DNA of 64,000 nucleotides, from the NCBI RefSeq assembly GCF_016793485.1, contig NZ_JAEULZ010000003.1, forward strand, positions 1-64,000, written 5' to 3'. Every line of letters begins with the position of its first letter. Position 1 is the stretch's first letter. This stretch comes from Mesorhizobium sp. Its GTDB lineage: Bacteria; Pseudomonadota; Alphaproteobacteria; Rhizobiales; Rhizobiaceae. This document shows, in pieces, positions 3,908 through 49,939 of this stretch. The notes beneath the pieces are model-generated. The model was not told the origin of the DNA and searched no databases. It was given only the letters and a program-made list of their open reading frames with translations. Both the position numbers and the translations under genes were made by a program.

Positions 3908-6586
3908 ATGACGGAAAAAGAAGCCGCAGGAAACACATCGCAACCGACGGCCGGCCCGGCCTCTGCACCGTTCTCCGCACTGACGCGAACGCGCCTTGCG
4001 GTTCGCGCCGCGATGATCGTCGAGCGTGGCTGGCCGCTGGTCCTGCCCATCCTCCTTGTCACCGGCGTCTTCCTCAGCCTTTCTTGGTTCGGCGTATTCC
4101 GCATTCTCCCGGACATCGCGCGGCTGGTCGTCGTGGCCGGCTTCGCCATCGCCTCGATAGCCGCCCTCTATCCGCTGCGTTTCTACCGAAGCCCGACTGC
4201 CGGCGAGATCGACCGTCGCATCGAGCGCGCCAACCAGTTGGCCCATACACCCGTTCTGGTGCAGACCGACCGCCCCGTCGGCGACGCAAGCCCGTTCGGC
4301 GATGCGCTGTGGCGCGAGCACCAGCGCCGCATGGCGGCCAGCCTCAACAATGTCGGCGGCGACCTCCCCCGCACACGCGTTCCGGAGCGCGACCCGTGGG
4401 GCCTGCGCGCCGCCGTTGCTCTGCTGCTGGTAACGGCTTTTGCCTTCTCGTTCGGCCCCTTCGGTGGACGGCTTGTCGACGGCTTCCGTTCGCACAGCTG
4501 GCTCGAAACCGTTCCACCGCGCATCGACGCCTGGGTGACGCCGCCGGCCTATACAGGCAAGGCGCCGGTGTTCCTGACGACGACCCCCAACGCTGGCGAC
4601 AGCGCGCAGGCCGCCCCGCCGGACGCGCCACCATTCGCTTTCTACACCGTCCCGGCGAACAGCGAGCTGTCGTTGCGTGTGACGGGCGGGTCCGGCACCG
4701 AAACGCTGGCCTTCACCGACGCGGACGGAAATATCCGCGATCTCCAGCCCGAAGGCGCTCCCGCTGCGGAAGGCACGAACGCCGAGGCTGCCGCGCCACA
4801 GCCGCCCGTCCCCGGCGCGCCCCGCCAGTTTGCCGGCAAGCTGACAGGCGACGGCGTGCTGACGCTGAAATCCGGCGACCGCGAGATTTCCAGCTGGACC
4901 TTCGCGGTGACGCCTGACAAAGCGCCGGTGATCCGCTTCGCCGACGAACCGAAGCGCGCGGTGAACGGTGCGCTCGAACTCGCCTACGAGGTCGAGGACG
5001 ATTACGGCGCGACGGAAGCCTTTGCCGAGTTCGAACTGGAGCAGGCGCCCGCTCCCGATGCGCGCCCGCTCTATCCCGCGCCTGACATGAAGCTCTCGCT
5101 GCCGCGCCGCGACGCCAAGGGACCGGCGGTCAAGACAGCGCGCGACCTGACGGAGCACGTGTGGTCCGGGGCGCAGATCAAGCTGACGCTCAAGGTCAAG
5201 GACGCGGCGGGACAGGAAGGCGCAAGCGAGACCAAGACGCTGACGATGCCGGCGAGGATTTTCACCAACCCGCTGGCGCGCGCAATCGTGGAACAACGCC
5301 AGATCTTCTCGCTGGACGCCAACCGCAAGAAAGAAGCGCTCGACCTGATCGACGCGATCACGCTGCGCCCCGAGGACACCATCCAGAACCCGTCGCACTA
5401 TCTCGGCATCATGACCGGCCGCACCAAGCTGGTGATGGCCGAGAGCGACGAGCAGTTGCGCGAGGTCGCCGATTATATGTGGCAGATGGCGCTGTCGATC
5501 GAGGACGGCGACCTTTCCGACGCGGAGCGTCGCCTGCGCCAGGCGCAGGAAGCGCTGCAGCAGGCGCTGGAGAACAACGCGTCGGACGAAGAGATCGACA
5601 GGCTGATGTCGGAACTTCGCCAGGCGATGGACGAGTTCCTGCGCGAATTCGCCGAGCGAGCCATGCAGAACCCGAACATGGCGCAGCAAATGCCGCAGAA
5701 CAGCCAGGAACTGCGCCAGAACGACCTGCAGCGCATGCTCGACCAGATCGAGAACCTGGCGAAGTCGGGCAATCGCGACCAGGCGCAGGACCTGCTGTCG
5801 CAACTGCAGAACATGATGAACAACCTGCAGGCCGGCCGCCAGCAGCAGAACCAGAATGGCCAGCAGAACTCCGAGATGCGCCAGCAGATGGACAAGCTCG
5901 GCGAGATCATGCGGCGCCAGCAGGAGATGATGAACGAGACGTTCCGCATGGACCAGATGCGGCGCGACCAGCAGCAGCGGGGCCAGGATCGCTCCGAGCA
6001 GCGCGGCGAGAACGGCCAGGACCAGCAGCCCGGAGAAGGCCAGCAGGGCCAGGGGCAGCAGCAGGGCCAGGGACAGCCGATGACGCCTGAAGAGTTCGCC
6101 GAGGCCTTGCGCCAGTTGCAGGAAGGCCAGGGCCAGCTGCAAAGCGAACTCGAGGCCCTGACAAAGGGCATGGAAGGCATGGGCATGCAGCCCGGCGAGG
6201 GTTTCGGCGAGGCCGGCGACGCGATGGGTCAAGCCGAGGGCTCGCTCGGGCGCGGTGACGGTGGGCGAGCCGTCGGCGAACAAGGGCGCGCGCTGGAGGC
6301 CCTGCGCCGCGGCGCGCAGGACATGATGAACCAGATGATGCAGGCCCAACAGGGCCAGGAGGGTCAAGGACAGGAAGGCGGTCGGCAGCAGAACGCCGAC
6401 CGCGATCCGCTCGGCCGCCCGCGCGCCACGACCGGGCCGGACTTCGGCGATTCTGTCACCGTGCCCGATGAGATCGACGTGCAGCGCGCCCGCCAGATCC
6501 TCGAGGCCATCCGCAAGCGTCTCGGCAACGCGCTGAGCCCCGAACTGGAGCGCAGCTACCTCGAACGCCTGCTGGAGATGCGGTAA
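3908..6586 (+). CDS. TIGR02302/DUF4175 family large membrane protein
   Basis: An 892-aa protein found mainly in Rhizobiales and relatives, of unknown function. Two hydrophobic helices lie near residues 45-95 and a third near 160-180, followed by a long probably periplasmic region. From about residue 530 the protein turns strongly Gln/Met/Gly-rich with repeated QQGQGQ-type blocks to about 840, and then a conserved tail containing QRARQILEAIRKR. The low-complexity part produces a long false open frame on the other strand. The start ATG follows a purine-rich AGGAAAGGCGG stretch. Confidence 0.88.
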   Translation: MTEKEAAGNTSQPTAGPASAPFSALTRTRLAVRAAMIVERGWPLVLPILLVTGVFLSLSWFGVFRILPDIARLVVVAGFAIASIAALYPLRFYRSPTAGEIDRRIERANQLAHTPVLVQTDRPVGDASPFGDALWREHQRRMAASLNNVGGDLPRTRVPERDPWGLRAAVALLLVTAFAFSFGPFGGRLVDGFRSHSWLETVPPRIDAWVTPPAYTGKAPVFLTTTPNAGDSAQAAPPDAPPFAFYTVPANSELSLRVTGGSGTETLAFTDADGNIRDLQPEGAPAAEGTNAEAAAPQPPVPGAPRQFAGKLTGDGVLTLKSGDREISSWTFAVTPDKAPVIRFADEPKRAVNGALELAYEVEDDYGATEAFAEFELEQAPAPDARPLYPAPDMKLSLPRRDAKGPAVKTARDLTEHVWSGAQIKLTLKVKDAAGQEGASETKTLTMPARIFTNPLARAIVEQRQIFSLDANRKKEALDLIDAITLRPEDTIQNPSHYLGIMTGRTKLVMAESDEQLREVADYMWQMALSIEDGDLSDAERRLRQAQEALQQALENNASDEEIDRLMSELRQAMDEFLREFAERAMQNPNMAQQMPQNSQELRQNDLQRMLDQIENLAKSGNRDQAQDLLSQLQNMMNNLQAGRQQQNQNGQQNSEMRQQMDKLGEIMRRQQEMMNETFRMDQMRRDQQQRGQDRSEQRGENGQDQQPGEGQQGQGQQQGQGQPMTPEEFAEALRQLQEGQGQLQSELEALTKGMEGMGMQPGEGFGEAGDAMGQAEGSLGRGDGGRAVGEQGRALEALRRGAQDMMNQMMQAQQGQEGQGQEGGRQQNADRDPLGRPRATTGPDFGDSVTVPDEIDVQRARQILEAIRKRLGNALSPELERSYLERLLEMR

Positions 6587-15694: not shown

Positions 15695-16801
15695 TCAGCT
15701 TTTCAGGAATTCGGCCAGCGCCGCGACGACGCCGCGATTGGCCTCCTCGGTGCCGACCGTCAGGCGCAGCGCGTTGGGGAAACCGTAGGCGGCGACGCGG
15801 CGCAGAATGTAGCCGCGCTCGGAGAGCCAGGCGTCGGCCTTGGCGGCCGAGTGTTTCTCGTCAGGGAAATGGACGAGGACGAAGTTGCCGACGGACGGCG
15901 TGATGCGCAGGCCGAGCTTCGGCAGCTCTTCCGACAGCCAGGCAAGCCAGCGATCGTTGTGCTCGACGGTGCGCTCGACATGCGCGCGGTCCCTGAGCGC
16001 TGCGACACCGGCCTCGATCGAAGCGGCGTTGACGTTAAAGGGACCACGCATGCGGTTGACGGCGTCGATGATGTGCGACGGTCCGTACATCCAGCCCAGC
16101 CTTATCCCACCAAGGCCATGGATCTTCGAGAAGGTACGCGTCATCACGACATTCTGCGAATTGCCGACGAGCTCGACGCCGGCCTCATAGTCGTTGCGGC
16201 GGACGTATTCGGCATAGGCCGCGTCGAGCACGAGCAGGACATGCTTCGGCAGTCCGGCATGCAGGCGGCGGATTTCCTCGAACGGCAAGTAGGTGCCGGT
16301 CGGATTGTTGGGATTGGCGAGGAAGACGACTTTCGTCTTCGCAGTCACCGCGGCGAGGATGGCGTCTACGTCGGCGCGCTCCTCGACCTCACGCACGGTC
16401 ACCGGAATGCCGCCGGCCGCCTGGATGTAGATCTTGTAGACCAGGAAACCGTGCTCAGTGATGATGGCCTCATCGCCCGCCGACAGGTAGGTCTGCGCAA
16501 GCAGTCCGAGGATTTCGTCCGAGCCGTTGGAGCAGATGATGTTGGCGGGGTTCAGCCCATGCGCCTCGCCGATCGTCTCGCGCAGCCGCGCAGCAGAGCC
16601 ATCGGGGTAGAATTCCAACCTACCGGCCACGTCGCGCACCGCCTCGATGGCGCGGGGCGAAGAGCCGAGCGGGTTCTCGTTGGAAGAGAGCTTGTGAACC
16701 TTGACGGCGCCGGGTGCGCCGCTCTTGCCGGGCACATAGGCCTCGATATCCATGATGCCGGCGCGCGGCTGTGGACGGGAAAGATCGGCTGCCTTGGTCA
16801 T
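15695..16801 (-). CDS. hisC: Histidinol-phosphate aminotransferase
   Basis: A 368-aa class I/II PLP aminotransferase. Motifs are LSSNENPLG near the N-terminus, [10 protein letters not shown], and the Schiff-base lysine in [17 protein letters not shown]. HisC makes L-histidinol phosphate from imidazole acetol-phosphate, and some relatives also transaminate phenylpyruvate or prephenate, which would fit its operon with tyrC. The ATG at 16801 is chosen; the longer frame would run into the metA riboswitch region. Confidence 0.9.
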
Positions 16802-38473: not shown

Positions 38474-38486
38474 CGCCGAAAGGCGG

Positions 38487-38515
38487 TTGGCGAAACGGGA
38501 GGAAACCGCTATGTG
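38487..38515 (+). promoter_or_regulatory. Original tRNA-Arg promoter, now driving a truncated tRNA
   Basis: TTGGCG, a 17-bp spacer and TATGTG lie 11 bp before the tRNA 5' end. After integration this copy points into the element and opposite to the integrase gene. A T6 run at 38604-38609 follows about 40 bp beyond the tRNA half and might end the transcript. Confidence 0.5.
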
Positions 38516-38526
38516 TGCTCGCGGCT

Positions 38527-38565
38527 GGTCCCGTAGCTCAGTAGGATAGAGCGGCAGATTCCTAA
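38527..38565 (+). pseudogene. 5' half of tRNA-Arg left at the left junction
   Basis: The first 39 nt of the tRNA (acceptor 5' strand, D arm, anticodon 5' strand and loop) are present, followed by unrelated sequence GATTGTGGCC instead of the anticodon 3' strand. It cannot fold into a tRNA. It is the original chromosomal 5' half separated from its 3' half by integration. Confidence 0.92.
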
Positions 38566-38608: not shown

Positions 38609-39874
38609 TCAGGGCATTGTTGCCCCATTGCTGCCCGCCACATTTAGCAGCGCAGCTTCAGCTTGCGCCATTTCCGTTTCAGTCACGGTGCTCTCAAACA
38701 GGTGCGAGTAGGTGTCGAGCGTCAGCATAATCGACGCATGCCCAAGAAGCTCCTGGGCCTCTTTTGGCGTAAGCCCCCTGCCGCCGCGCGCCTTTGGGCT
38801 GATGCACCACGAAGCGAACCAGTGCCGCAGCGCGTGCATTCCCTCGTACTTCGCGACCGTGATCATCTCCTGCTTCCCGTCCTTGCCGATAACGGGTTTC
38901 AGGTGCTTGTCGCGGCGCGGCTTGAGCTTCGTCAACCCGGCTTTGATCTGCTGTCGGCACAGGCTATCGCGCACGATGTTCTCGTGCCGCTGGATAGTGC
39001 CGCGCTGCGAGGGAAACGCGTACAGCAGCGCCCCCTGGCGGTCTCTAGGGCACTGCTGCCGCCAGTCGCGCAGAATGTTCGCCACCATTGGAAACATCGG
39101 AATGAAGCGCTCGCTCTTTTCCGACTTCGGACGACCGATTGTCCCACTCAGGTTGGCACGTTGGCGCACGTGGATGCGATTCGTTTCAAAATCGACATCA
39201 GCCCATTCAAGGCCGCGAAGCTCGGACGCACGCATGCCTGTGAAAATTGCCGTCAGGACCAGCGCGCGGTGAACGCCGCCCGTCTTGTCCAACTGGGCTT
39301 GGAGCGTACGGATATCGTCAGGCGAGGGAATATCGACACCCACCTGCAACTTGGCCTTCCGCCGCTTCGCGAGTTTGTTCTCCCTACGCGTGGGCATGTC
39401 CTTGACCGCATTGCGGATGGAATGACCGCGTGCCTGCGCTTCACTCAAAATGCCCGATAGCGAGGTCCGAACCGAACGGATAAGCGTGTCTGACTTTCCG
39501 GCAGCCTTGAGCCTGTCAACAAACGCGTGGACCTCCGGAATGCCGAGACGCGATAGCTTTGTCGCGCCGATGTATGGCACGATGTGAAGATCGACGTGTT
39601 GGCGGTAGCCTTTGGCCGTCAGCGGCTCCAGTTCCGCATCGGCACGCGCAAGCCAATGCTCGGCTGCCTTTGCGACCGTGATATCCTTGTGCGTTGGGAC
39701 ATGCTGCCCGTTGCGAATATCAACGCCAGCCTGATCGCGAAATTCGGCAGCATCCTTACGGCGAGCGAACTGCTTGACGTTGCGCTTTCCAGACTGATCG
39801 ACGTAATCGACAACCCAGCTTTCAGTCTTACCGGCCTTGGTTTGCCAAGTTCTCTTACGGATACTCATTTTCAT
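38609..39874 (-). CDS. int: Tyrosine-type site-specific integrase
   Basis: A 421-aa phage-type integrase. Residues 1-60 look like an arm-binding domain, about 65-165 a core-binding SAM-like domain, and 185-395 the catalytic domain: Arg215 in TGMRASELRGLEW, a Lys near 250, the HALRHWFAS box (His347, Arg350), His379 in LLGHASI and Tyr389 in LDTYSHLF. It ends 43 bp inside attL and is transcribed toward it. It would catalyse integration into the tRNA-Arg anticodon-loop site and, with a directionality factor, excision. Confidence 0.95.
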   Translation of the reverse strand: MKMSIRKRTWQTKAGKTESWVVDYVDQSGKRNVKQFARRKDAAEFRDQAGVDIRNGQHVPTHKDITVAKAAEHWLARADAELEPLTAKGYRQHVDLHIVPYIGATKLSRLGIPEVHAFVDRLKAAGKSDTLIRSVRTSLSGILSEAQARGHSIRNAVKDMPTRRENKLAKRRKAKLQVGVDIPSPDDIRTLQAQLDKTGGVHRALVLTAIFTGMRASELRGLEWADVDFETNRIHVRQRANLSGTIGRPKSEKSERFIPMFPMVANILRDWRQQCPRDRQGALLYAFPSQRGTIQRHENIVRDSLCRQQIKAGLTKLKPRRDKHLKPVIGKDGKQEMITVAKYEGMHALRHWFASWCISPKARGGRGLTPKEAQELLGHASIMLTLDTYSHLFESTVTETEMAQAEAALLNVAGSNGATMP

Positions 39875-40185: not shown

Positions 40186-40545
40186 ATGAAAGACCCGCTG
40201 GATAGTCTCAGGCTCCGCTGGGGTTCCAAAAACATCGCATTGTCGATGGGGCGTCCCGAACGGACGGTGGCTTATATGCTGGAAGCCGGCCAGATTCCGG
40301 GGGCGCGAAAGATCAATGGACGCTGGTGCGTGAGCGATTTCGCGCTGGAGCGGCTGTTTGAGATCGATGGTCCTGCTGAATTTAACGAAGCCACTTTGGC
40401 TCAGTCCTTGCAGCATGTTCGCAAGACTCTGGAGCGGCTGTCACGCGAGGCAGCAGATCGTCTGAAGTCCGGATCGCAAATTGCCAGCAATCTCGCTGAG
40501 ATTGCGCAGAGCATCAAATCTGTCGAGCAGGAGGTGGTGGTGTGA
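40186..40545 (+). CDS. Excisionase-like small DNA-binding protein
   Basis: A 119-aa protein. Residues about 12-55 form a MerR/excisionase-type winged helix: NIALSMGRPERTVAYMLEAG and KINGRWCVSDFALERLF. The C-terminal half is helical and charged and may dimerise. Position next to int, divergently transcribed, fits a recombination directionality factor or an early regulator. It overlaps the endonuclease gene by one base. Confidence 0.7.
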   Translation: MKDPLDSLRLRWGSKNIALSMGRPERTVAYMLEAGQIPGARKINGRWCVSDFALERLFEIDGPAEFNEATLAQSLQHVRKTLERLSREAADRLKSGSQIASNLAEIAQSIKSVEQEVVV

Positions 40546-41114
40546 TGGGCTGCTGTGTCTATGAGCACTGGCGCCCCGATACCAATGCCTGCTTCTACGT
40601 TGGCAAGGGAGCGCTTCGCCGATCACGCGACCTTGGAGTGTCGGCTGGTTGTCGCACCAAGGCGCACGGCGCTGTGCAGGAAGCGCTTCGCGCACAGGGA
40701 TTGCAGGTCGAAATCCGTATCGTCGCGCAGGACCTGACCGAACTGGAAGCGCTGGCGCTCGAAATGGAGCGTATCGCTCTCTACGGCAAGATCGAAGATG
40801 GCGGAACGCTTGTAAATCGGACAATCGGCGGCTCCGGCACGTACGGCATGCGCCACACGCCGGAAGCCCGCGCAAAGATGTGCGCTGCGCAAGCTGCTCG
40901 CGACCCCGCGCTGTCAGGACATCCTCATACTCCTGAATCCCGCGCCAAAATATCAGCCGCGTTGAAGGGCCGTCCGAAGTCCGCGGAATCACGCGCCAAG
41001 CGCGCTGATACTTTGCGAGGCCGACCGCTGACCCCTGAGCATATCGCAAACATCAAAGCCGCACAGAAGGCGCGCTGGGCGCGTCGGCGTGAGAGGCTTG
41101 CGGAAGGCACATAG
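40545..41114 (+). CDS. GIY-YIG endonuclease with NUMOD3 motifs
   Basis: A 189-aa protein. The N-terminal GIY-YIG-type fold is shown by VYEHWRPDTNACFYVGKG and an acidic LEALALEMERIALYG segment. The C-terminal part carries three NUMOD3-like DNA-binding repeats: HTPEARAKM, HTPESRAKISAALKGRP and LTPEHIANIKAAQKARW. The arrangement is that of free-standing homing endonucleases such as SegA types. It may promote spread of the locus or cut rival phage DNA. Translation is coupled to the upstream gene (TGATG). Confidence 0.82.
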   Translation: MGCCVYEHWRPDTNACFYVGKGALRRSRDLGVSAGCRTKAHGAVQEALRAQGLQVEIRIVAQDLTELEALALEMERIALYGKIEDGGTLVNRTIGGSGTYGMRHTPEARAKMCAAQAARDPALSGHPHTPESRAKISAALKGRPKSAESRAKRADTLRGRPLTPEHIANIKAAQKARWARRRERLAEGT

Positions 41115-41282: not shown

Positions 41283-42830
41283 ATGTCAAATACATCAACA
41301 TCAGAAGCCGGTAAACTTGAAGCGCTGTTCGATGGATACTCGAAAGCTCACGGCAAATACGAAGTCAAGCGCGTCAACGACAAGGGAAAGAATGAAGGAC
41401 GCGCTGTCACAGTCAGGGAGCCTGTCACGGAGGCGCTGTGGCAAGCGCACATAGACGGTACGGGCGCTGGGCTTGGCATTATCCCTCTGCGCGATGATTT
41501 CACCGCCGTCTGGGGCGTCATCGACATAGACGAGTACTCCGGCCTGAAGCATGCCGAGCTTGAGAAGCAGTGCAAAGCCAAAAGCCTGCCTTTGGTCGTG
41601 TGCCGGAGCAAGAGCGGCGGGGCACACTTGTTTCTCTTTTTGGTCGACCCGCTACCTGCCGCCGATGTCATCAACACCTTGTCGTCATGGGCAGCGGCGC
41701 TTGGGCACGTTGGCGCTGAGATATTCCCCAAGCAGGCAAGCCGTGCTGACGAGGACAAGGACGTTGGGAACTGGCTCAACATGCCCTACTTCAACGCTGA
41801 GCGTACCAGCCGCTACTGCGTGCATGATGGCAACGAGCTTGATCTGCCCGCGTTCCTTGAATTCGCCGACAGCATGCGACAGACGCGCGGACAGCTTGAT
41901 GAAATAGAGAAGTCAGCGCTGCCTGACATCGGCGCGCCCGACGACCTGTTCTATGAAGCGCCGCCATGCCTCCAGCATCTGCACGCCAATGGTGGCTTTC
42001 CCCACGGCACCCGGAACGAGGGGATGTACAATGTCGCCGTCTATCTCAACAGGCGACACGATGGCGATTGGACCTCGGACGACCTGCAAAAATACAACGT
42101 CGCGATGTGCGATCCGCAGATGTCGATCGAGGACATCAACACTGAAACCAAGTCGGTGCAGAAAAAGAAGGACAGATACTTCTTCAAGTGTGGCAAGGCA
42201 CCGATCAACGCGCATTGCAATCGGAACCTCTGCATTCAGCGCAAGTTTGGTGTCGGCGGAAATATCCCGCGTCTCGCCCTGACGAAAGTCGTTGGCGATC
42301 AGATCGAGTGGCTGTTGGACATACGTGGCAAGCGCGTCCGTCTGGCGAACAAGCAACTCTTCAATCAGCGCTTGTTTCAGGAGACGGTGGGTGAGGTCAT
42401 CAACGACTATCTCCGAACGATACCGCAACCGGAGTTTGAGCGCCTTATAGGCGAGGCGATGCAGCGTGCTGCGGAGCAAATAGTTCCTGAGGAATATACG
42501 GGGAAGGGCATGCTGAAAGGCACCATCCTCAAACTCCTGGACGGGCAGGCTAAGTCCATAAACGCGGAACAGTTCTACGCTTCCGATGCGCACCCCTGGA
42601 AACAACAGAACGGTGAAGTGTGGTTTAAAATCCATCGTCTGATGATTCAGCTAAAAACGCAGCAGGTGGAGGCCACGATAAAATCGCTGCCCGATGTTCT
42701 TCGCGAGATGGGGTGTCAGGAGCAGAACAAGTCGCTCATTCCCGGCAAAAAGAAATGCCGCTTCTGGTCGCTCAACATTGAGGCAGCTCCTGTTGAGCCT
42801 GATCCTGCGTTTGGGACGACAGACTTTTGA
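41283..42830 (+). CDS. Archaeo-eukaryotic-type primase (TOTE-like)
   Basis: A 515-aa DNA primase/primase-polymerase candidate. The catalytic DxD is Asp81/Asp83 in VWGVIDIDEY, followed by CRSKSGGAHLFLFL (Ser109-His115) and EIFPKQ near 147-151, the motif set of TOTE-conflict and COG4951-like primases. A PriCT-like helical region spans about 235-295 (GTRNEGMYNVAVYLNRR). A Cys/His cluster follows (Cys303, His311, Cys312, Cys317), then a C-terminal winged-helix-like segment. There is no Walker motif, so a host helicase would be needed. It presumably starts replication of the excised element. A GATTC site lies 18 bp before the start. Confidence 0.85.
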   Translation: MSNTSTSEAGKLEALFDGYSKAHGKYEVKRVNDKGKNEGRAVTVREPVTEALWQAHIDGTGAGLGIIPLRDDFTAVWGVIDIDEYSGLKHAELEKQCKAKSLPLVVCRSKSGGAHLFLFLVDPLPAADVINTLSSWAAALGHVGAEIFPKQASRADEDKDVGNWLNMPYFNAERTSRYCVHDGNELDLPAFLEFADSMRQTRGQLDEIEKSALPDIGAPDDLFYEAPPCLQHLHANGGFPHGTRNEGMYNVAVYLNRRHDGDWTSDDLQKYNVAMCDPQMSIEDINTETKSVQKKKDRYFFKCGKAPINAHCNRNLCIQRKFGVGGNIPRLALTKVVGDQIEWLLDIRGKRVRLANKQLFNQRLFQETVGEVINDYLRTIPQPEFERLIGEAMQRAAEQIVPEEYTGKGMLKGTILKLLDGQAKSINAEQFYASDAHPWKQQNGEVWFKIHRLMIQLKTQQVEATIKSLPDVLREMGCQEQNKSLIPGKKKCRFWSLNIEAAPVEPDPAFGTTDF

Positions 42831-43045
42831 GAGCGGTGTTGGCGGGCGCTGTACAGGGCGTTTGCAGTGCTGCCCCAGTACAAGTGCTGGCGCTACGTGG
42901 TCCGGGGACTACAGCCCGAAGGCAGCGACCTCAACAGGGTGGTTCATGCCTCTGCGCTTATGCGCGTATGCGCAGGGCGCGGATAATGCGCGTACACGGG
43001 GACATACATCATGAAGCAAGTTCCCTGCGCGATGGACTGTGGGTT

Positions 43046-43228
43046 CAGCACAGCAGCACAGCAAGCGTACCCCTGCTTTTCCCCTGCGGTGCTAACGCAA
43101 ACACCTGCGTTGTATGCTGTTCAGTACTCCGGCACCGCAAGCACCGCAACTGTCCACGCATGCGCACATGCGCGTGCACACGCGCACGATAACACCGGTG
43201 CTTGCTGTGCTGCTGTGCTGGGATTTTT
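43046..43228 (+). ncRNA. Candidate structured RNA or origin stem-loop
   Basis: The 21-nt arm at 43046-43066 (CAGCACAGCAGCACAGCAAG plus C) is perfectly complementary to 43200-43220. Inside it TGCGGTGC (43085-43092) can pair with either of two GCACCGCA copies (43132-43139 or 43141-43148), enclosing an ACGCA/TGCGT hairpin (43095-43110). The outer stem is followed by GGGATTTTT, as in an intrinsic terminator. Two alternative inner pairings suggest a switchable fold. Expression is unknown; a double-stranded replication origin is the alternative. Confidence 0.45.
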
Positions 43229-43265: not shown

Positions 43266-43359
43266 GCGCGCCCCTGTAGCTGATGCAGAACGGGCTAAAG
43301 CTCAAAGCCGACTGACAGATTTTGTATCTGTAAGTCACAGCATAACTTCATGAAAACAT

Positions 43360-43469: not shown

Positions 43470-44201
43470 ATGAGAACCGAGAGTATGAACCTTCCCCGCA
43501 TTAGAGCGCCGCGCCAGCGTGCCGCTGCTTCAAACGGCAAGAGGCTCGTGCCGGGGATCGACATGCGCAGCGCACATGCCCGCCGCATGCACGACTTGAT
43601 CGCAGGGCACGTGGCCGACATGGGCGGCAACGTCAGCCAAGCACAGTACGCGCTGATTAAGACTGCCGCCAATATCCAGATGAGCATGGAAGCTGCTGAG
43701 CTTCAGTTCTCGCAGCAGGAGGGCGGCGCAACGTTCCCGCAGATGCTTGCATACGGAACAATGGCTAACTCGCTCCGTCGCACATACGAAAGCCTTGGCA
43801 TAGACAAGGCTCCCCCTGCTCCACCGCAAAGTTCTGGCGAAGTATGGACCGCTGAAATCAACAACCTCAGCACCGACGAGCGGAAGGAGACGGAGAAGCT
43901 CATCTACGAGCGCGACGAACTCGGTCCCCTGTTTAGCGACCTCAAGGCTGGTCGTCTCAAGCAGCTCATCGCCAAGCTGTACTGGCGAGGGTTTGGTCCA
44001 TCGAAGGAGGACAAGGGGCAAGTCGTACGTCACGACAAAGACCTGCCCTACGACGAAATCGACTGGGACTATTACCACGCCCGCATCGAGGCCCGTCTTG
44101 AGAAGGAGCAGGCGCGCGAGGACCGCATGGGCAGCGAAGCTTACCACAAGCAGAAGATGCAGATGTTCGGGAACAACAAGACGAGGACAATCGACATATG
44201 A
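43470..44201 (+). CDS. Unknown element protein, small-terminase-like core
   Basis: A 243-aa protein, first gene of the operon. The segment ARRMHDLIAGHVADMGGNVS through ANSLRRTYESLGID has the pattern of predicted phage small-terminase-like proteins in rhizobial prophages (inference, no motif is decisive). The C-terminal 60 residues are rich in acidic and basic residues with EIDWDYYHARIEARLEKEQ. An ATG at 43485 (MNLPRIRAPRQ) is an equally good start. The stop overlaps the next start (ATGA). A small terminase without its large partner would fit a satellite redirecting helper packaging. Confidence 0.55.
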   Translation: MRTESMNLPRIRAPRQRAAASNGKRLVPGIDMRSAHARRMHDLIAGHVADMGGNVSQAQYALIKTAANIQMSMEAAELQFSQQEGGATFPQMLAYGTMANSLRRTYESLGIDKAPPAPPQSSGEVWTAEINNLSTDERKETEKLIYERDELGPLFSDLKAGRLKQLIAKLYWRGFGPSKEDKGQVVRHDKDLPYDEIDWDYYHARIEARLEKEQAREDRMGSEAYHKQKMQMFGNNKTRTIDI

Positions 44202-44641
44202 GACCCGGCGACCGTCTCATCTCCGACAACGGCGAGCAATGGATCGTCGTCGCCCACACTGACGAATACACGGAGACGGAAATCAAGCGCGGGCTTCCGG
44301 GCCGCTACTGCTTCCTCGTTCGTCCGATTGAGACTGAGTTCGGACGCGACATGATCTACGCGTTCAAGCACGAGGACGAGATTCAGCATCTACAGCACTT
44401 CGAAGCCGTCATAGCGCAGCACGACCATGTGATGCATGACGGCGAACTGCTGTCCGTAGTGCGCGAAGGAAAGGGCGGACCCTTCAACCTCGCATCCCTG
44501 TTCATGTGGCTCAAGAACGATGACGGCGACTACTTCTGGGCATGGCGCTGGCAAGTGTCGCTCATGCTCATGCTTGGTGAGGACCAACCCTTCAGCTTCC
44601 TCACTGCTGAGTGGCGACCAGCCGTCGCAGGGGAGTTCTGA
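44198..44641 (+). CDS. Hypothetical element protein
   Basis: I do not recognise this 147-aa protein. The N-terminal part (MRPGDRLISDNGEQWIVVAH and the following ETEIKRGLPGRYCFLVRPIE) looks like a small beta-barrel, and the C-terminal part is aromatic-rich (FMWLKNDDGDYFWAWRW). It is acidic overall with no membrane segment. It is coupled to both neighbours: ATGA overlap upstream, and the next gene starts 3 bp after its stop. Confidence 0.6.
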   Translation: MRPGDRLISDNGEQWIVVAHTDEYTETEIKRGLPGRYCFLVRPIETEFGRDMIYAFKHEDEIQHLQHFEAVIAQHDHVMHDGELLSVVREGKGGPFNLASLFMWLKNDDGDYFWAWRWQVSLMLMLGEDQPFSFLTAEWRPAVAGEF

Positions 44642-44643
44642 CA

Positions 44644-45654
44644 ATGGCGTGCAAGCGTCTCAACGTCAGACGACCGCTTGCCGACATACTCGCGGACCTT
44701 GCTCGCATGGACGAGCAGGTGCTCGACAACTTGCAAGTCATGTCCCTGCTGAACGTGACAAACAACGTTCTGGTGCTGGCGCGTGTAGAAAAAGTCTCAC
44801 CGCCTTACGAACGTGTTCCACTATACGGTCGCCGTGGCGGGCGGACAGTGGTCTATCCCCGCTTGGAGTTGATTGAGTGGCTGCGGACTACATCGAAAGT
44901 CACGGATAACCCGGTCTATCCGGTGGTTCGCTTGAGCCGGGAGGAAGCAGCGGCCCAAAACTTGCTCGCAGCACAGAAAAGGACTGAGCGGGCAGCACGG
45001 AAGGCTGAGAGGCTTCAAGCTGAAGCGAAGCGGAAACAGGAGCAGGAAGCTTGGAAGGCCCGCCAGCTTCAGGTTGACGCGCAGCTCAATCAATACAGAG
45101 CTTCGCAACGCGCCGCGAGCGCCGCGGAAAAACTCAGACGCGAGAGCGTGAAGGCAGAGCACAAACTGGCGCGTGAAATCCACCGTGCTGAAATGCGGGA
45201 GCAGCGTGAACGTGCTGCCGCCGAAGAAAAGCGTGAGATCGCCGAAGACCGTCAATTCGTCAACGAACATGCTCAGCGACGAGCTTCAGCCCGCAAGGCT
45301 AAGTTCCAGAAGCAGATAGAAGCACGCGACGACAACAAGGCACAGGCGGAAGCTGTAGCGCGTGATGCAAAGCGGAATACCCCCGACCTTGCCGCCATTG
45401 CGGACGCGCTGGACAAAGCGCCAGCGCCACCAAAGCCCACTGAGCAGGCCGAGCACCAGCAGGAGCATCGGATGCTCTGCTTGCCGTTGGAGCAACTGAC
45501 GCGAAGCCAATGTCATTGGCCGGTCGGTGATCCACGTGACGACGACTTTTCCTACTGCGGCGCGGCAACTCGCGAGGGGAGCAGATACTGCGCCCACCAT
45601 GCCGCTATCGCTTTCAGGAAGCCTGACCCCCTCAAGATAGGAGTTCGAAAGTAA
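44644..45654 (+). CDS. Coiled-coil protein with GcrA-like C-terminal domain
   Basis: A 336-aa three-part protein. Residues 1-90 form a compact domain (LADILADLARMDEQVLDN, then VVYPRLELIEWLRTT), possibly DNA-binding. Residues about 100-260 are a long charged coiled coil of Ala/Glu/Lys/Arg. Residues 277-325 closely follow the GcrA C-terminal domain: Cys290-x-WPxGDP, FSYCG (302-306), YC (315-316), HH and IAF. In Caulobacter GcrA this domain binds sigma70 region 2. The GcrA N-terminal DNA-binding domain is absent. The protein may recruit or divert host RNA polymerase (inference). The stop overlaps the next start (TAATG). Confidence 0.75.
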   Translation: MACKRLNVRRPLADILADLARMDEQVLDNLQVMSLLNVTNNVLVLARVEKVSPPYERVPLYGRRGGRTVVYPRLELIEWLRTTSKVTDNPVYPVVRLSREEAAAQNLLAAQKRTERAARKAERLQAEAKRKQEQEAWKARQLQVDAQLNQYRASQRAASAAEKLRRESVKAEHKLAREIHRAEMREQRERAAAEEKREIAEDRQFVNEHAQRRASARKAKFQKQIEARDDNKAQAEAVARDAKRNTPDLAAIADALDKAPAPPKPTEQAEHQQEHRMLCLPLEQLTRSQCHWPVGDPRDDDFSYCGAATREGSRYCAHHAAIAFRKPDPLKIGVRK

Positions 45655-46394
45655 TGGCCATCCATCCCACGATCCAAGGTCTACTGAAGCGCCGTAGCGT
45701 TCCAATCGACCTCGACCCTGCAACTGTCCAGCATCATGCGCCGCATCGCATCGACAAAACTGTTGCCGATCCCGATGTTGAGGGCGTCGTAAAAGCTGTC
45801 GCTGAAGCCCAGCAGTCAGCACTACAGCTTGCCGAGACCGAGTTCGTCGTGCTGTCCGACCGCTCACGTCCACAGGACGCTGCGCGCGCTGCCATTGCTC
45901 AGGCGGCTTCGACCACAGGTGCCAAGGTTGCGCAGCGCCTGGACGCAGCGCGGGCAAAGCTCGTCACGAGCATCGCGACGATTGAGAAGGGCATCAGCGC
46001 ACCCGCTGCCCCCATCAACGCAAAGCAGGTCGCCGAGCAGGCCGAGATACGGGCCGCGCTCGCGCGCATGTCGGATAAGGAGCGCCGCGACACCATCGCC
46101 AGCGCGTTTGCTGGCAGCAAGACGCATGTCCTCGCTGCGTTGCTTAATGGTGATGCCTTCCTGTCCGGTCTCAAGGACACGGAGATTGCCGTGCATCGGC
46201 AGCGCTACATGAAAGACTTTCACCCAGGCCCACTCGCTCGTCGTGATGCCCTCAACAAGCTGCTCGCAGCATATGACCGGTCGGCGGCGTCATTCATCGC
46301 CATGGTCAACGACATGAGCGAGAGCAGCGCCGCGCGCCTTGCTCGACTTCGCAAGCAACAGGCCGACGACGCGTTGGCCGCCCACGGAGAGTGA
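45654..46394 (+). CDS. Hypothetical helical element protein
   Basis: I do not recognise this 246-aa protein. It is Ala-rich and mostly helical, with no membrane segment. A central region (about 75-145) has coiled-coil character, followed by ALARMSDKERRDTIASAFAG and MKDFHPGPLARRDALNKLL, which look conserved-like. It starts on the last base of the GcrA-like gene and ends 4 bp before the next gene, so the five-gene operon is continuous. A scaffold or DNA-associated role is possible. Confidence 0.6.
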   Translation: MAIHPTIQGLLKRRSVPIDLDPATVQHHAPHRIDKTVADPDVEGVVKAVAEAQQSALQLAETEFVVLSDRSRPQDAARAAIAQAASTTGAKVAQRLDAARAKLVTSIATIEKGISAPAAPINAKQVAEQAEIRAALARMSDKERRDTIASAFAGSKTHVLAALLNGDAFLSGLKDTEIAVHRQRYMKDFHPGPLARRDALNKLLAAYDRSAASFIAMVNDMSESSAARLARLRKQQADDALAAHGE

Positions 46395-46398
46395 AACG

Positions 46399-46968
46399 AT
46401 GGCTGATCATGTCCTGTTTTTTCCAGACGGCGCTTTCGCCGCGCCACGCATTGTAATGAAGCGCGATTGGTATCACGTCCCTGACGAATGGCGCGACCTG
46501 TATGCCCTCGGAAAGACGAATCGAGATGGCAGAATGGTGCCCTGTTATGTCATGCGCGCCCCTGCTTGGGCGCAGTTCGAGTCTATCGTCACCGATGCGA
46601 ACGAGAGGTTGTCGCAACACGCTGCCTTTCAGGCGAAGCACGAGCGGCACACGGAAGCACGCGCGCGGCAGGAAGCTCGTATCAACAGCCGGATGATCGA
46701 CTCTGCAGTCGGTAAGCTGCTTGTGTTCGCTGGTGTGAAGGAGCCGCTGCTGCACGGTGCGACGGCGTTGCTGCGCGACGCTCACAAGCTTGTCGTGGAC
46801 GAGACGGATGGCGAGTTCAACATCTTCGCCGAAAGCGAATACGGGATGCGTGAACTGACCGAAGTGGTCGAGGAGTTCCTGACGACCAACGCCGCAGCGC
46901 CGTATATGAAAGGGGGCGCGCTACAGAAGCAGCCCGCCCCTCATTTCGCGAATATGCTGAAGCACTAG
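46399..46968 (+). CDS. Hypothetical element protein, last in operon
   Basis: I do not recognise this 189-aa protein. It begins MADHVLFFPDGAFAAPRIVM, has a central charged helix (HTEARARQEARINSRMID) and ends TTNAAAPYMKGGALQKQPAP. The ATG at 46399 follows CGGAGAGTGAAACG, a good ribosome-binding site, so the longer frame from 46339 is not used. Its end overlaps the convergent HTH gene by 4 bp. Confidence 0.6.
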   Translation: MADHVLFFPDGAFAAPRIVMKRDWYHVPDEWRDLYALGKTNRDGRMVPCYVMRAPAWAQFESIVTDANERLSQHAAFQAKHERHTEARARQEARINSRMIDSAVGKLLVFAGVKEPLLHGATALLRDAHKLVVDETDGEFNIFAESEYGMRELTEVVEEFLTTNAAAPYMKGGALQKQPAPHFANMLKH

Positions 46969-47243
46969 GCGGCAGGCAGCGATTGCACGCGTGCGCCGAA
47001 GCTACGGGCGGCCTTTGCGGGCTTGCGCGGTGCCTTCAGCGTGTAGTGCATGCTTCCCTCGTGCAGCGAGCCGACAATGACCAGCCCATCGCGCTTGCAA
47101 TCGGAAATGAGCGAGTAGGCGGCCTGCTTGGAGATACCAAGCTTCTCCGCGATCTGCGCGACGGATGTTGGCTTGTCCGCCAGCATCGCTGCGACGGTTG
47201 CTTTTTTGGAAAGCGGCTTGGCTGGTACTTTTGCTTTAGGCAT
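46965..47243 (-). CDS. Small winged-HTH regulator
   Basis: A 92-aa basic protein. Residues 14-58 form a helix-turn-helix: TVAAMLADKPTSVAQIAEKL and GISKQAAYSLISDCKRDGL, followed by a wing VGSLHEGSMHYTL. The basic tails resemble histone-like or phage regulators. It faces the five-gene operon tail to tail and its leader contains a hairpin that overlaps the ribosome-binding site. It is a likely repressor of the adjacent GANTC-rich region. Confidence 0.78.
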   Translation of the reverse strand: MPKAKVPAKPLSKKATVAAMLADKPTSVAQIAEKLGISKQAAYSLISDCKRDGLVIVGSLHEGSMHYTLKAPRKPAKAARSFGARVQSLPAA

Positions 47244-47249
47244 CTTTGA

Positions 47250-47290
47250 CTCCTGTCTAACCGCTCGCGCATGCTTGCGCGGCTGACAGG
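47250..47290 (-). promoter_or_regulatory. Leader hairpin overlapping the HTH gene's ribosome-binding site
   Basis: On the minus strand an outer stem CCTGTC/GACAGG encloses an inner CGCGCA/TGCGCG hairpin with a 4-nt loop. The 3' strand GACAGG runs into AGGAG, the ribosome-binding site 6-7 bases before the ATG at 47243. Folding should hide part of that site. Confidence 0.5.
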
Positions 47291-47400
47291 GACGCTAGGA
47301 TTCTGCGCGCCGTAGGTAGACGAACGGGCAGTTGTCATCTGATGCAGGCGAGTTGCCGCTGATTCGTGTCAAGTGCGAATCTGCTTGTCCCCCGGACACC

Positions 47401-47418
47401 CTGTGAACCGCTGTGAAC
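47401..47418. promoter_or_regulatory. Helically spaced direct repeat CTGTGAAC
   Basis: CTGTGAAC occurs at 47401-47408 and 47411-47418, exactly one helical turn apart, in the GANTC-rich region. This spacing suits a regulator binding one DNA face, perhaps the adjacent HTH protein. Confidence 0.35.
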
Positions 47419-47506
47419 GGCGGGAACCCCCTACATCTAGTGTTTGCGGACGCGACTCTATGGGAATACCTAGAGGGTCATCTTTCAATAGGGATTCGCC
47501 CCCACG

Positions 47507-47589: not shown

Positions 47590-48279
47590 CTAATTCGGCC
47601 GCGTCGCGAGTATTAACTCGCGACCGTATTCGCTCACCTTTGCTTGGATATAGCTGTATCCGCCACTCATAAGCATCATTGGCTCAATGCATCCTGCCGC
47701 ATCTAGAGCCGCCAATGCGATCGCAGTATCGCCCTCAGGCGGGGGGACAGACGACATGTCAACATTGCCCAGATCCGCGTATGAGGAGGGAAGACCCAAA
47801 GTGTACATCATGCCACTTTTCTTCATAACGGATTGAGGCGCTTCCACCATTGTCTTGAGTATCAACGCCTCCAACGGCGACATCAGACGTACGGTTTCAA
47901 TGTACGACTTGGGAATATATTTGCCGTACTTGTGGTCCATTGCGTTGACCAGTAACTGAGCAAACATGTCGGAAAGAGTTTCGTCCTCTTCAAGCGACGC
48001 GGCTTCTAGCAGTGGGTATGCTATCGATAGAGGCACAGGTCGATGCGAATCTGACAAACCACGTTCCCGCTGCAAACGCTCTACCCGCTGCTGAAAGCGC
48101 ATCGCCAATTCGATGCGCAGCATGCCAAAGCCGTCGCCAACTAGACCCATACCCTGCTTGAGGGGGTGGCCAAGCACGTTGGCTACAAATTTGCCGAAAG
48201 TATCGACTGACTTCTGATAGGCGGTAGCGGTCTTAGCTACCTCTTGGACCGCTTTGCTCTCTTCATCGCTGAGAATCAT
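47590..48279 (-). CDS. Abi-alpha (DUF4393) family defence protein
   Basis: A 229-aa protein matching the Abi-alpha/DUF4393 pattern: FVANVLGHPLKQGMGLVGDG, LRIELAMRFQQRVERLQ, the PLLEAASLEEDETLSDMFAQ helix followed by LLVNAMDH, and LMSPLEALILKTM. Members are annotated as abortive-infection proteins, but the mechanism is not established. The ATG at 48279 follows a strong GGAGGGG site and is preferred over the longer frame. A strong terminator ends 15 bp before the start, so expression requires read-through. Position at the end of a mobile element fits cargo against rival phages. Confidence 0.7.
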   Translation of the reverse strand: MILSDEESKAVQEVAKTATAYQKSVDTFGKFVANVLGHPLKQGMGLVGDGFGMLRIELAMRFQQRVERLQRERGLSDSHRPVPLSIAYPLLEAASLEEDETLSDMFAQLLVNAMDHKYGKYIPKSYIETVRLMSPLEALILKTMVEAPQSVMKKSGMMYTLGLPSSYADLGNVDMSSVPPPEGDTAIALAALDAAGCIEPMMLMSGGYSYIQAKVSEYGRELILATRPN

Positions 48280-48294
48280 TTGCCCCTCCGTTAG

Positions 48295-48326
48295 AAAAAA
48301 GGGCACCCCGTTCCCGGGATGCCCTT
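48295..48326 (-). terminator. Strong intrinsic terminator directly before the Abi-alpha gene
   Basis: On the minus strand AAGGGCATCCCG-GGAA-CGGGGTGCCCTT makes a 12-bp stem (one G-U pair) with T6 at its end. It begins 5 nt after the stop codon of the upstream small membrane gene and leaves only 15 nt before the Abi-alpha start. This looks like an attenuator. Confidence 0.85.
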
Positions 48327-48822: not shown

Positions 48823-48903
48823 GGTTGGCGAGACGGAAGGAAACCGCTATGTGTGCTCGCGGCTGGTCCCGTAGCTCAGTAGGATAGAGCGGCAGATTCC
48901 TAA
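48823..48903 (+). repeat. attR: direct repeat restoring tRNA-Arg
   Basis: This is the right copy of the 81-bp block at 38485-38565. It reaches from the -35 region of the tRNA promoter to the last base of the anticodon loop. The DNA to its left is element sequence, so promoter and 5' half of the working tRNA now abut element DNA. Confidence 0.93.
48825..48853 (+). promoter_or_regulatory. tRNA-Arg promoter at the right junction
   Basis: TTGGCG, a 17-bp spacer and TATGTG end 11 bp before the tRNA 5' end. The hexamers are identical to the left copy; two spacer bases differ. It must drive the only intact tRNA-Arg(CCU) copy in the window. Confidence 0.6.
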
Positions 48904-48941
48904 TCTGTAGGTCACAGGTTCGATTCCTGTCGGGATCACCA
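48865..48941 (+). tRNA. tRNA-Arg (anticodon CCT)
   Basis: A 77-nt sequence folds into a full cloverleaf: acceptor GGTCCCG/CGGGATC, D arm GCTC/GAGC, anticodon stem GCAGA/TCTGT with loop TTCCTAA (anticodon CCT, reading AGG), T arm ACAGG/CCTGT with loop TTCGATT, and encoded CCA end. It is the integration target. Positions 1-39 are within the direct repeat, so they may derive from the element, whereas the 3' half is chromosomal. Confidence 0.96.
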
Positions 48942-49006: not shown

Positions 49007-49939
49007 CTATCTTCGTTCTTCCCGAACAAATGGCTGACCGAGCGCCGCCGGCTGGCCGCTGCGACGATTTGCGGACAGGCTCGTCCATACCATCACGGCG
49101 AGCGTGACCACATAGGGCAGCATGAGGACGAAATACTGAGGCAGTTGAAGCCCGATGGCTGCCATGCGCGGTATAAGTGCCTCGATGCAGCCGAACAGCA
49201 CCGCGCCGGCCAATGCCGGCCATGGTTGCCAGCGCGCGAAGATGACCAGAGCTATCGCGATCCATCCGCGGCCACCGGACATGCCGTCGACCCAAATCTT
49301 CGAGACGGCGACCGAAAGGTAACCACCGGCGAGACCGATGAGCATGCAGCCGACGACAACCGCACCCGTCCTGTACCAGCCAACCGGCACGCCGGCCGCA
49401 TCCGCCGCTTCCGGATTCTCGCCAACCGCCCGCAAACGCATGCCGACATGGGTGGCGCGAAGAACATGGACCACGACGGCAAAGATGACGATTGTCAGAT
49501 AGACCATGAGGTCCTGCTGGAAGACAATGCGTCCGACGCCCGGCAGGGACGACAGAACCCCGAAATTGAGATCCTGGAGGCCGGAGAAAGCCCGGTTTGT
49601 CCAACCCTGGCTTGTCGCTATCAAGGCGGTCAGGCCTTGGGCAAAAAACACGATCACGAGGCCTGAAATAACCTGGTTCACGCGCAGCGCAATCACCAGC
49701 AGAGCGAAGAGAAGGGAGAGCAGGCCCGCAGCGAGCGCCGAAACGGCGAGGGCGGCGAGCGGATGGACGTCGAGCGAGAGCATCACGCCAGCACCCGCCA
49801 TCGCACCCACCAGCATGTAGCCCTCGGCGCCCAGATTCAGCACGCCGGCCTTCTCACAGATAATGAGGCCAAGCGCCGCCAAGGCGAAAGGCACGGCAAA
49901 GCCGGGGACATTTGCAAGCCAGTTTACGACGAAGTCCAT
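49007..49939 (-). CDS. ABC transporter permease, nucleoside (BMP) type
   Basis: A 310-aa inner-membrane permease of the BPD_transp_2 family with about nine helices. Typical pieces are ICEKAGVLNLGAEGYMLVGA, NQVISGLVIVFFAQG and MRLRAVGENPEAADAAG, the latter being the ATPase-contact loop. It pairs with the next gene. The ATG at 49939 is chosen because the longer frame runs through the neighbouring permease gene. It is the last gene of the transporter operon. Confidence 0.92.
   Translation of the reverse strand: MDFVVNWLANVPGFAVPFALAALGLIICEKAGVLNLGAEGYMLVGAMAGAGVMLSLDVHPLAALAVSALAAGLLSLLFALLVIALRVNQVISGLVIVFFAQGLTALIATSQGWTNRAFSGLQDLNFGVLSSLPGVGRIVFQQDLMVYLTIVIFAVVVHVLRATHVGMRLRAVGENPEAADAAGVPVGWYRTGAVVVGCMLIGLAGGYLSVAVSKIWVDGMSGGRGWIAIALVIFARWQPWPALAGAVLFGCIEALIPRMAAIGLQLPQYFVLMLPYVVTLAVMVWTSLSANRRSGQPAALGQPFVREERR

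Follow-up and report, generated by a model that had tools for sequence, protein, structure and literature searches.

P4 Delta and P2 Ogr are zinc-finger late activators that act through RNAP alpha. For GcrA, one review describes the N-terminal domain (residues 1 to 45) as the reader of methylated DNA (PMC7403470), and the C-terminal domain is described as docking on region 2 of sigma (PMC7403470; PMC6917491). The phage sigma-binding proteins that this review lists are repressors directed at region 4 (PMC7403470). GcrA homologues are also encoded by phages: they are reported for phiCbK-like phages, with a proposed role in boosting the replication functions of the host (PMC3556154; see also PMC9437464), for Agrobacterium phage Atu_ph08 (PMC6630229), and for cyanophage Pam5 (PMC9382816). 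Among satellites, PICIs are described as having int at one side and, divergent from it, xis and primase, followed by ori and then by interference genes, sometimes with terS (PMC6092414).

Here, we examined a GcrA-domain gene in a 64,000-nucleotide stretch of DNA (the window). The gene is carried by a 10.3-kb element in tRNA-Arg(CCT), which lies between 81-nt direct repeats (38485-38565 and 48823-48903; 98% identical; spacing of 10,338 nt); in an Rfam scan, the tRNA alone passed the threshold. The features of the element are listed below; L139 is a sibling element in a bacterium that belongs to the same family but to a different genus.

38485-38565 (+), left attachment repeat: remnant of the tRNA-Arg 5' half plus 42 nt upstream
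38609-39874 (-), tyrosine integrase (PF00589, 2.3e-16; phrog_1, 1.7e-56)
40186-40545 (+), small HTH protein, Xis/AlpA-like (HTH_17, 0.013; excisionase phrog_1840, 0.012; both weak)
40542-41114 (+), homing-endonuclease-like protein with NUMOD3 (NUMOD3, 6.8e-12; phrog_314, 1.6e-14)
41283-42830 (+), archaeo-eukaryotic-type (AEP) primase, phage type (AEP-TOTE, 4.5e-10; phrog_21866 primase, 1.8e-90)
42846-43220 (no strand), repeat stretch between the primase and TerS-like genes: TGCGCnnATGCGC-type repeats and a perfect 21-bp inverted repeat
43488-44201 (+), small-terminase-like (TerS-like) gene (longest start at 43350); homologues directly before the terminase large subunit gene in five of seven relative loci
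44198-44641 (+), 147-aa protein, counterpart of a 145-aa ORF in L139
44644-45654 (+), GcrA-domain protein gene (336 aa; ATG at 44644, stop at 45654)
45484-45621 (+), GcrA sigma70-interacting domain proper, residues 281-326 (the PF07750 match ends at 326; conserved columns in alignments A1 and A2)
45654-46394 (+), 246-aa protein, marker of the element family
46399-46968 (+), protein common to the window and L139 (34% over 85 aa)
46968-47243 (-), small winged-helix regulator, MarR-like (PF12802, 3.6e-6)
47590-48306 (-), Abi-alpha-like phage-defense candidate (PF14337, 9.3e-20; PADLOC PDC-S47, 9.5e-11)
48823-48903 (+), right attachment repeat, joined to an intact tRNA-Arg(CCT) at 48865-48941

An integrase is thus accompanied by site-specific attachment repeats, and the replication module (xis-like gene and primase, +) diverges from int (-), the xis label being weak; both are marks of PICI-like satellites. 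None of the element's 11 proteins matched a portal, capsid, or tail profile in Pfam or PHROGs. Given the attachment repeats in tRNA-Arg, the divergent integrase, the TerS-like gene, and the lack of recognized capsid genes, we classify the element from its gene content as a PICI-like phage satellite. The TerS-like protein itself has insignificant profile matches (best, phrog_14410 of unknown function, 0.043). A weak match of the MarR-like protein to a terminase small subunit profile (phrog_7067, 0.0088) was set aside. The repeat stretch at 42846-43220 is a possible replication origin. Beside the MarR-like gene, the intergenic stretch 47248-47493 contains six GANTC sites within 246 bp; elsewhere, the window never has more than 4 per 250 bp and is poor in GANTC overall (118 found versus approximately 330 in shuffles). 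Under uniform placement, this cluster has a P value of 0.003 within the element and 0.011 over the window; a link to the cell cycle through it was rejected, since it was drawn post hoc and L139 has no cluster at that place.

The gene itself is part of a compact, co-directed run of five genes (43488-46968), in which its neighbors are closely packed: the upstream stop codon lies at 44641, and the downstream ATG overlaps at 45654. This run may be transcribed as an operon. The original prediction had placed on the element a 336-aa protein ending in a GcrA-like sigma70-interacting domain; the frame and coordinates are correct, the gene does lie on a mobile element with integrase and attachment repeats, and the C-terminal similarity is real and far above chance. 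The Pfam GcrA profile (PF07750) matches the protein with an E value of 2.9e-13 (50.9 bits, cutoff of 26.9), aligning residues 225-326 with profile positions 45-147 of 155; in a search of the organism's own genome, the same profile gave 1.1e-15 for this protein. PHROG 12262 (phrog_12262) also matches (E = 1.9e-9), as do the GcrA entries of the PDB (5yix_B, E = 3.7e-8; 7ye1_G, E = 3.8e-8), with residues 261-327 corresponding to 5yix, a GcrA:sigma entry. The predicted order of motifs is present from C290 through A323 (C290-x-W-P-x-G-D-P297, F302-x-Y-C305-G306, Y315-C316, H319, and A323). The Cys and His residues of the GcrA domain are putative zinc ligands.

Alignment A2 (53 rows) set the protein beside 52 viral domains, which were selected from 67 nonredundant ones. 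Fourteen columns are conserved, ten of them without exception and four almost without exception, and the protein keeps all 14 (L285, C290, W292, P293, G295, D296, P297, F302, C305, G306, Y315, C316, H319, and A323). The viral rows were collected by the motif C[RKH]WP[IVL]GDP, which fixes six of the 14 columns and leaves eight as independent evidence; the invariance is somewhat overstated, since the 15 viral domains left out by choice include several with insertions. Against the NCBIfam GcrA equivalog NF050816, the protein scores 41.5 bits, below the cutoff of 280, and is therefore not GcrA itself. By homology, its C-terminal domain would bind sigma70.

Upstream of this domain, the protein consists of an unrecognized N-terminus (residues 1 to approximately 93), a charged segment free of Pro and Gly (residues 94-246), and a linker leading to the GcrA domain (approximately 280-326). 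Over the 153 residues of the central segment there is no Pro or Gly, and residues 101-240 are charged and rich in Ala, Arg, Glu, Gln, and Lys; together, these features make a long helix likely. A long charged coiled coil had been predicted here. The segment is indeed long and charged, but hydrophobic periodicity at 95 to 107 degrees (the heptad range) was not above that of shuffled sequences, 381 of 2,000 of which reached the real value, and we do not retain the coiled-coil label.

The predicted absence of GcrA's own DNA-binding N-terminus was upheld. A hidden Markov model (HMM) of the DNA-binding domain (DBD), built from six GcrA DBDs including those of the host GcrA and of L006, scored these two members at 109.6 bits (host) and 110.8 bits (L006) and three phage GcrAs outside the model (those of phiCbK, Bajun, and Ssp-JY42) at, in ascending order, 28.6, 42.7, and 53.4 bits; for our protein, it reported nothing at E ≤ 1000. 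With this model silent, and Pfam and PHROG matches of residues 1-113 no better than chance (baeRF_family7, 0.095-0.46; phrog_37973, 0.075), the N-terminal domain is, as had been suggested, unrelated to that of GcrA. The host's own complete GcrA sits on another contig (E = 4.3e-58) and shares 49% identity with the protein across 45 aa of the domain; in a profile search of the genome, these two were the only GcrA-domain proteins.

No Pfam HTH family matches the N-terminus. Reading of the sequence brought out a stretch at residues 63-81 resembling the wing of a winged helix, and a home-made HTH_17 model (23 HTH_17 pieces) scored the N-terminus at 9.9 bits with the wing part alone aligning, compared to 19.2 bits for the element's Xis-like protein. 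None of 2,000 shuffles reached 9.9 bits (best, 9.0); the score was also reached by 22 of 3,670 six-frame ORFs of at least 90 aa. Residues 1-100 carry a net charge of +5. These data give a hint, and no more, of a winged-helix-type fold; because no family matches, the comparison with HTH_17 was itself prompted by inspection of the sequence, and 22 of 3,670 ORFs score equally well, contact of the N-terminus with DNA is only suggested.

We searched for relatives of the whole protein and of its N-terminus. Of 50,697 phage records, 29 matched, all through the C-terminal domain only (42 to 53% identity over 36 to 46 aa), as did 10 of 72,556 plasmid records; neither collection held a full-length relative. 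Full-length relatives were likewise absent from the viral contigs and the genome_contigs collection, where, as in the scan of viral contigs with the N-terminus, which gave no match, exact 8-residue stretches are required and distant relatives could escape. In 297 genomes of the order, only the window itself reaches residues 1-104 among the matches listed. The N-terminus alone gave four weak places in three other genomes among 397 of the order (E values of 0.002 to 0.007). Three of these have internal stops, and the fourth, an open frame of 340 aa, was judged from the plus-strand ORFs to be a chance ORF; we rejected all four because a search of 397 genomes should yield about that many chance hits at E ≤ 0.01. 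In phages, the N-terminus matched one Hafnia phage (two records, E = 2). The N-terminal ~100 residues are thus without a convincing relative in the collections searched.

We propose, with about even confidence, that the protein is a satellite-borne sigma70 tether. The original prediction had likewise envisaged a tether for host RNA polymerase, serving either activation of promoters of the element or competition with GcrA. The C-terminal GcrA-type domain would dock on region 2 of the host primary sigma factor; in place of the methyl-DNA-binding domain, another addressing function would come from the N-terminal domain together with the long helical arm. The protein would be made within a terminase-proximal operon and would most likely bring host RNA polymerase holoenzyme to promoters of the satellite or of a helper phage, independently of CcrM methylation. 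The mode of action would be like that of the P2/P4 zinc-finger late activators, but through sigma region 2. A tether with a different address is the simplest reading because the dock is kept and the reader lost. It is favored by the PF07750, PHROG, and PDB matches, which cover the part of GcrA solved with sigma, by the full set of conserved A2 columns, and by the wing-like stretch, HTH_17 score, and positive charge of the N-terminus. Counting against it, a consensus promoter scan of the element found 2 sites, fewer than in shuffles (mean of 3.2).

The main competing explanation, which we regard as unlikely, is that the protein is a decoy: by occupying sigma region 2, it would compete with the GcrA of the host or of a helper phage and so damp GcrA-dependent phage or cell cycle transcription to the satellite's benefit. 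The presence of the domain without the GcrA DBD would suit this role, and GcrA domains are common on viral contigs. A scan of these contigs returned 188 stretches, of which 179 were relatives carrying the domain and 80 were kept; a GcrA-type DBD was found in 70 of the 80 (E < 1e-3) and was absent by this threshold in 10. In this group of 10, the DBD match of L156/L157 is weak (E = 0.0023), L211 is truncated at its end, and the frame of L219 is apparently broken. L165 (4564-6216) encodes a viral protein of 551 aa with three Myb stretches (Pfam) followed by the GcrA sigma-binding domain; since PF07750 aligns from profile position 2, its heads are GcrA-like, divergent, and multiplied. Five loci with apparently intact frames have no GcrA-type head: L181/L182 encode near-identical proteins of 145 aa with another N-terminus that is HTH-like by eye (HTH_23, only 0.11), and L195, L213, and L215 encode 94, 108, and 70 aa with little beyond the domain. 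By eye, L147 (967-1674; Brevundimonas phage Bajun) has two tandem GcrA-type DBDs. Virus-like elements with a GcrA domain are therefore not new as such; the architecture of the present protein and its location in a satellite are unusual, and among the literature matches listed, none dealt with the domain being carried by a satellite or joined to some other N-terminus.

Near-bare domains such as those of L195, L213, and L215 are compatible with a decoy, as is the position of the gene downstream of the TerS-like one, close to the place that interference genes take in PICIs (PMC6092414); this position and the wealth of phage GcrAs are what favor such a role. However, a bare domain of 50 to 60 aa would suffice for it, and the approximately 230 further residues need another reason, which favors an activator. 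In addition, the genome itself holds GcrA-domain proteins of the host and the element only.

The sibling and relative elements bear on a further explanation. L139 lies at the same tRNA-Arg and is of near-equal size (repeats at 6108-6154 and 16347-16393, 10,239 nt apart). It shares with the window an adjoining amidohydrolase (68.8% identity, 400 aa); the window's right-hand neighbor (a permease at 49007) had no match anywhere in the L139 sequence (19.9 kb). The two elements use the same crossover sequence in the tRNA-Arg anticodon loop; the tRNA half carried is 5' in the window element and 3' in L139, and the integrases lie at opposite ends. Proteins related between the two include the integrase (50% identity, 401 aa), the Xis-like protein (38% over 53 aa), the NUMOD3 protein (GIY/NUMOD3; 71% over 112 aa), the primase (44%), the TerS-like protein (38%), and the MarR-like regulator (46% over 72 aa); the 246-aa and 190-aa genes are also common to both. 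In a single comparison, the 147-aa protein, which gave no tblastn or family match, was 26% identical to its 145-aa counterpart across 149 columns (E = 2e-8). Where the window has the GcrA-domain gene, L139 has an unrelated ORF of 128 aa (best E value of 22), and it contains no GcrA motif, indicating that satellites of this kind can do without the domain.

Primase, TerS-like gene, terminase large subunit (TerL), and 246-aa gene follow one another in L138 (same record as L269), L140, and L267; the TerL of L138 matches phrog_2 (5.4e-27). TerL follows the TerS-like gene in L138, L140, L142, L143, and L267 but not in L139 or L141. In L138, L140, and L267, it fills the stretch held here by the 147-aa and GcrA-domain genes, which therefore occupy the terminase slot. 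Across 11 relative loci, no GcrA motif was found except for one chance string in L141 with an adjacent stop. Relatives of the element are uncommon: counting its own genome each time, the TerS-like gene was found in 7 of 297 genomes of the order, the 246-aa gene in 6 of 387 genomes of the order, and the primase in 3 of 121 genomes of the family and 5 of 385 of the class. The window element, L139, L138, L140, and L267 form a compact integrative family with an AEP primase, a TerS-like gene, often TerL, and the 246-aa marker; L138 and L140 lie near tRNA-Glu, and L139 and the window element lie in tRNA-Arg. Members of this family look like satellites, some with their own terminase, with the absence of capsid genes in the relatives judged from ORF lists alone.

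This setting would also suit recruitment of the domain as a simple zinc knuckle by a protein of the packaging or scaffold type, unconnected with sigma70, an explanation we consider improbable. In its favor, the 153-residue segment without Pro or Gly, as a long helix, suggests a structural part, and the succession TerS-like gene, 147-aa gene, GcrA-domain gene, and 246-aa gene occupies TerL's stretch in the order TerS-like gene, TerL, and 246-aa gene of the three relatives. Against it, the kept positions other than Cys and His (L285, W292, P293, G295, D296, P297, F302, G306, Y315, and A323) argue for a full GcrA-type surface. Finally, a chance or decayed fusion without function, such as a captured 3' end of gcrA from host or phage, would fit the lack of a full-length relative in the collections searched and a match to host GcrA of no more than 49% across 45 aa, but it is very improbable given that the frame is intact, that the gene is tightly packed with its neighbors, with start and stop codons overlapping, and that all conserved A2 columns are kept; moreover, the low identity argues against recent capture from the host chromosome.

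The reading as a satellite-borne sigma70 tether draws further on the comparisons above, since other viral loci place the domain on other N-termini, after divergent heads, or nearly bare, and since L139, a sibling almost equal in length, shares the tRNA crossover, consistent with satellite anatomy. More broadly, and tentatively, the GcrA domain may be a portable grip on RNA polymerase that alphaproteobacterial phages and satellites have moved onto other heads or left nearly bare; here, it might seize host sigma70 for methylation-independent control of late genes of the satellite or of its helper, possibly in opposition to helpers that carry GcrA. If so, a satellite with a cell cycle activator domain directed at region 2 would represent a different route to taking over host transcription. 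It would become testable whether GcrA's sigma grip works without the reading of methylation and whether satellites contest that grip with helper phages. The finding also points to a primase/TerS satellite family in this bacterial order.

Compared to known systems, the protein has the same C-terminal sigma70-interacting domain as GcrA (Caulobacter and the host; PF07750/NF050816) but is about twice as long, with an unrelated N-terminus, a long, probably helical segment, and no methyl-DNA-binding domain. The GcrA homologues of phiCbK-like, Brevundimonas, and Synechococcus phages (phrog_12262) likewise have the domain on a viral carrier; however, those of phiCbK, Bajun, and Ssp-JY42 keep a GcrA-type DBD and sit in whole phages rather than in a satellite-like element. 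L165, L181/L182, L195, L213, and L215 also have a GcrA domain without the standard single DBD, but none has this N-terminus or long helix. The element resembles PICIs in its integrase divergent from xis and primase, TerS-like gene, terminal defense gene, size of approximately 10 kb, and lack of recognized capsid genes, and differs from them in its phage-type AEP primase and alphaproteobacterial host. Lastly, P4 Delta and P2 Ogr provide the precedent of a zinc-finger protein of a small element that brings host RNA polymerase to late promoters, as proposed here, but whereas they act through the alpha subunit, the present protein would act through sigma region 2.
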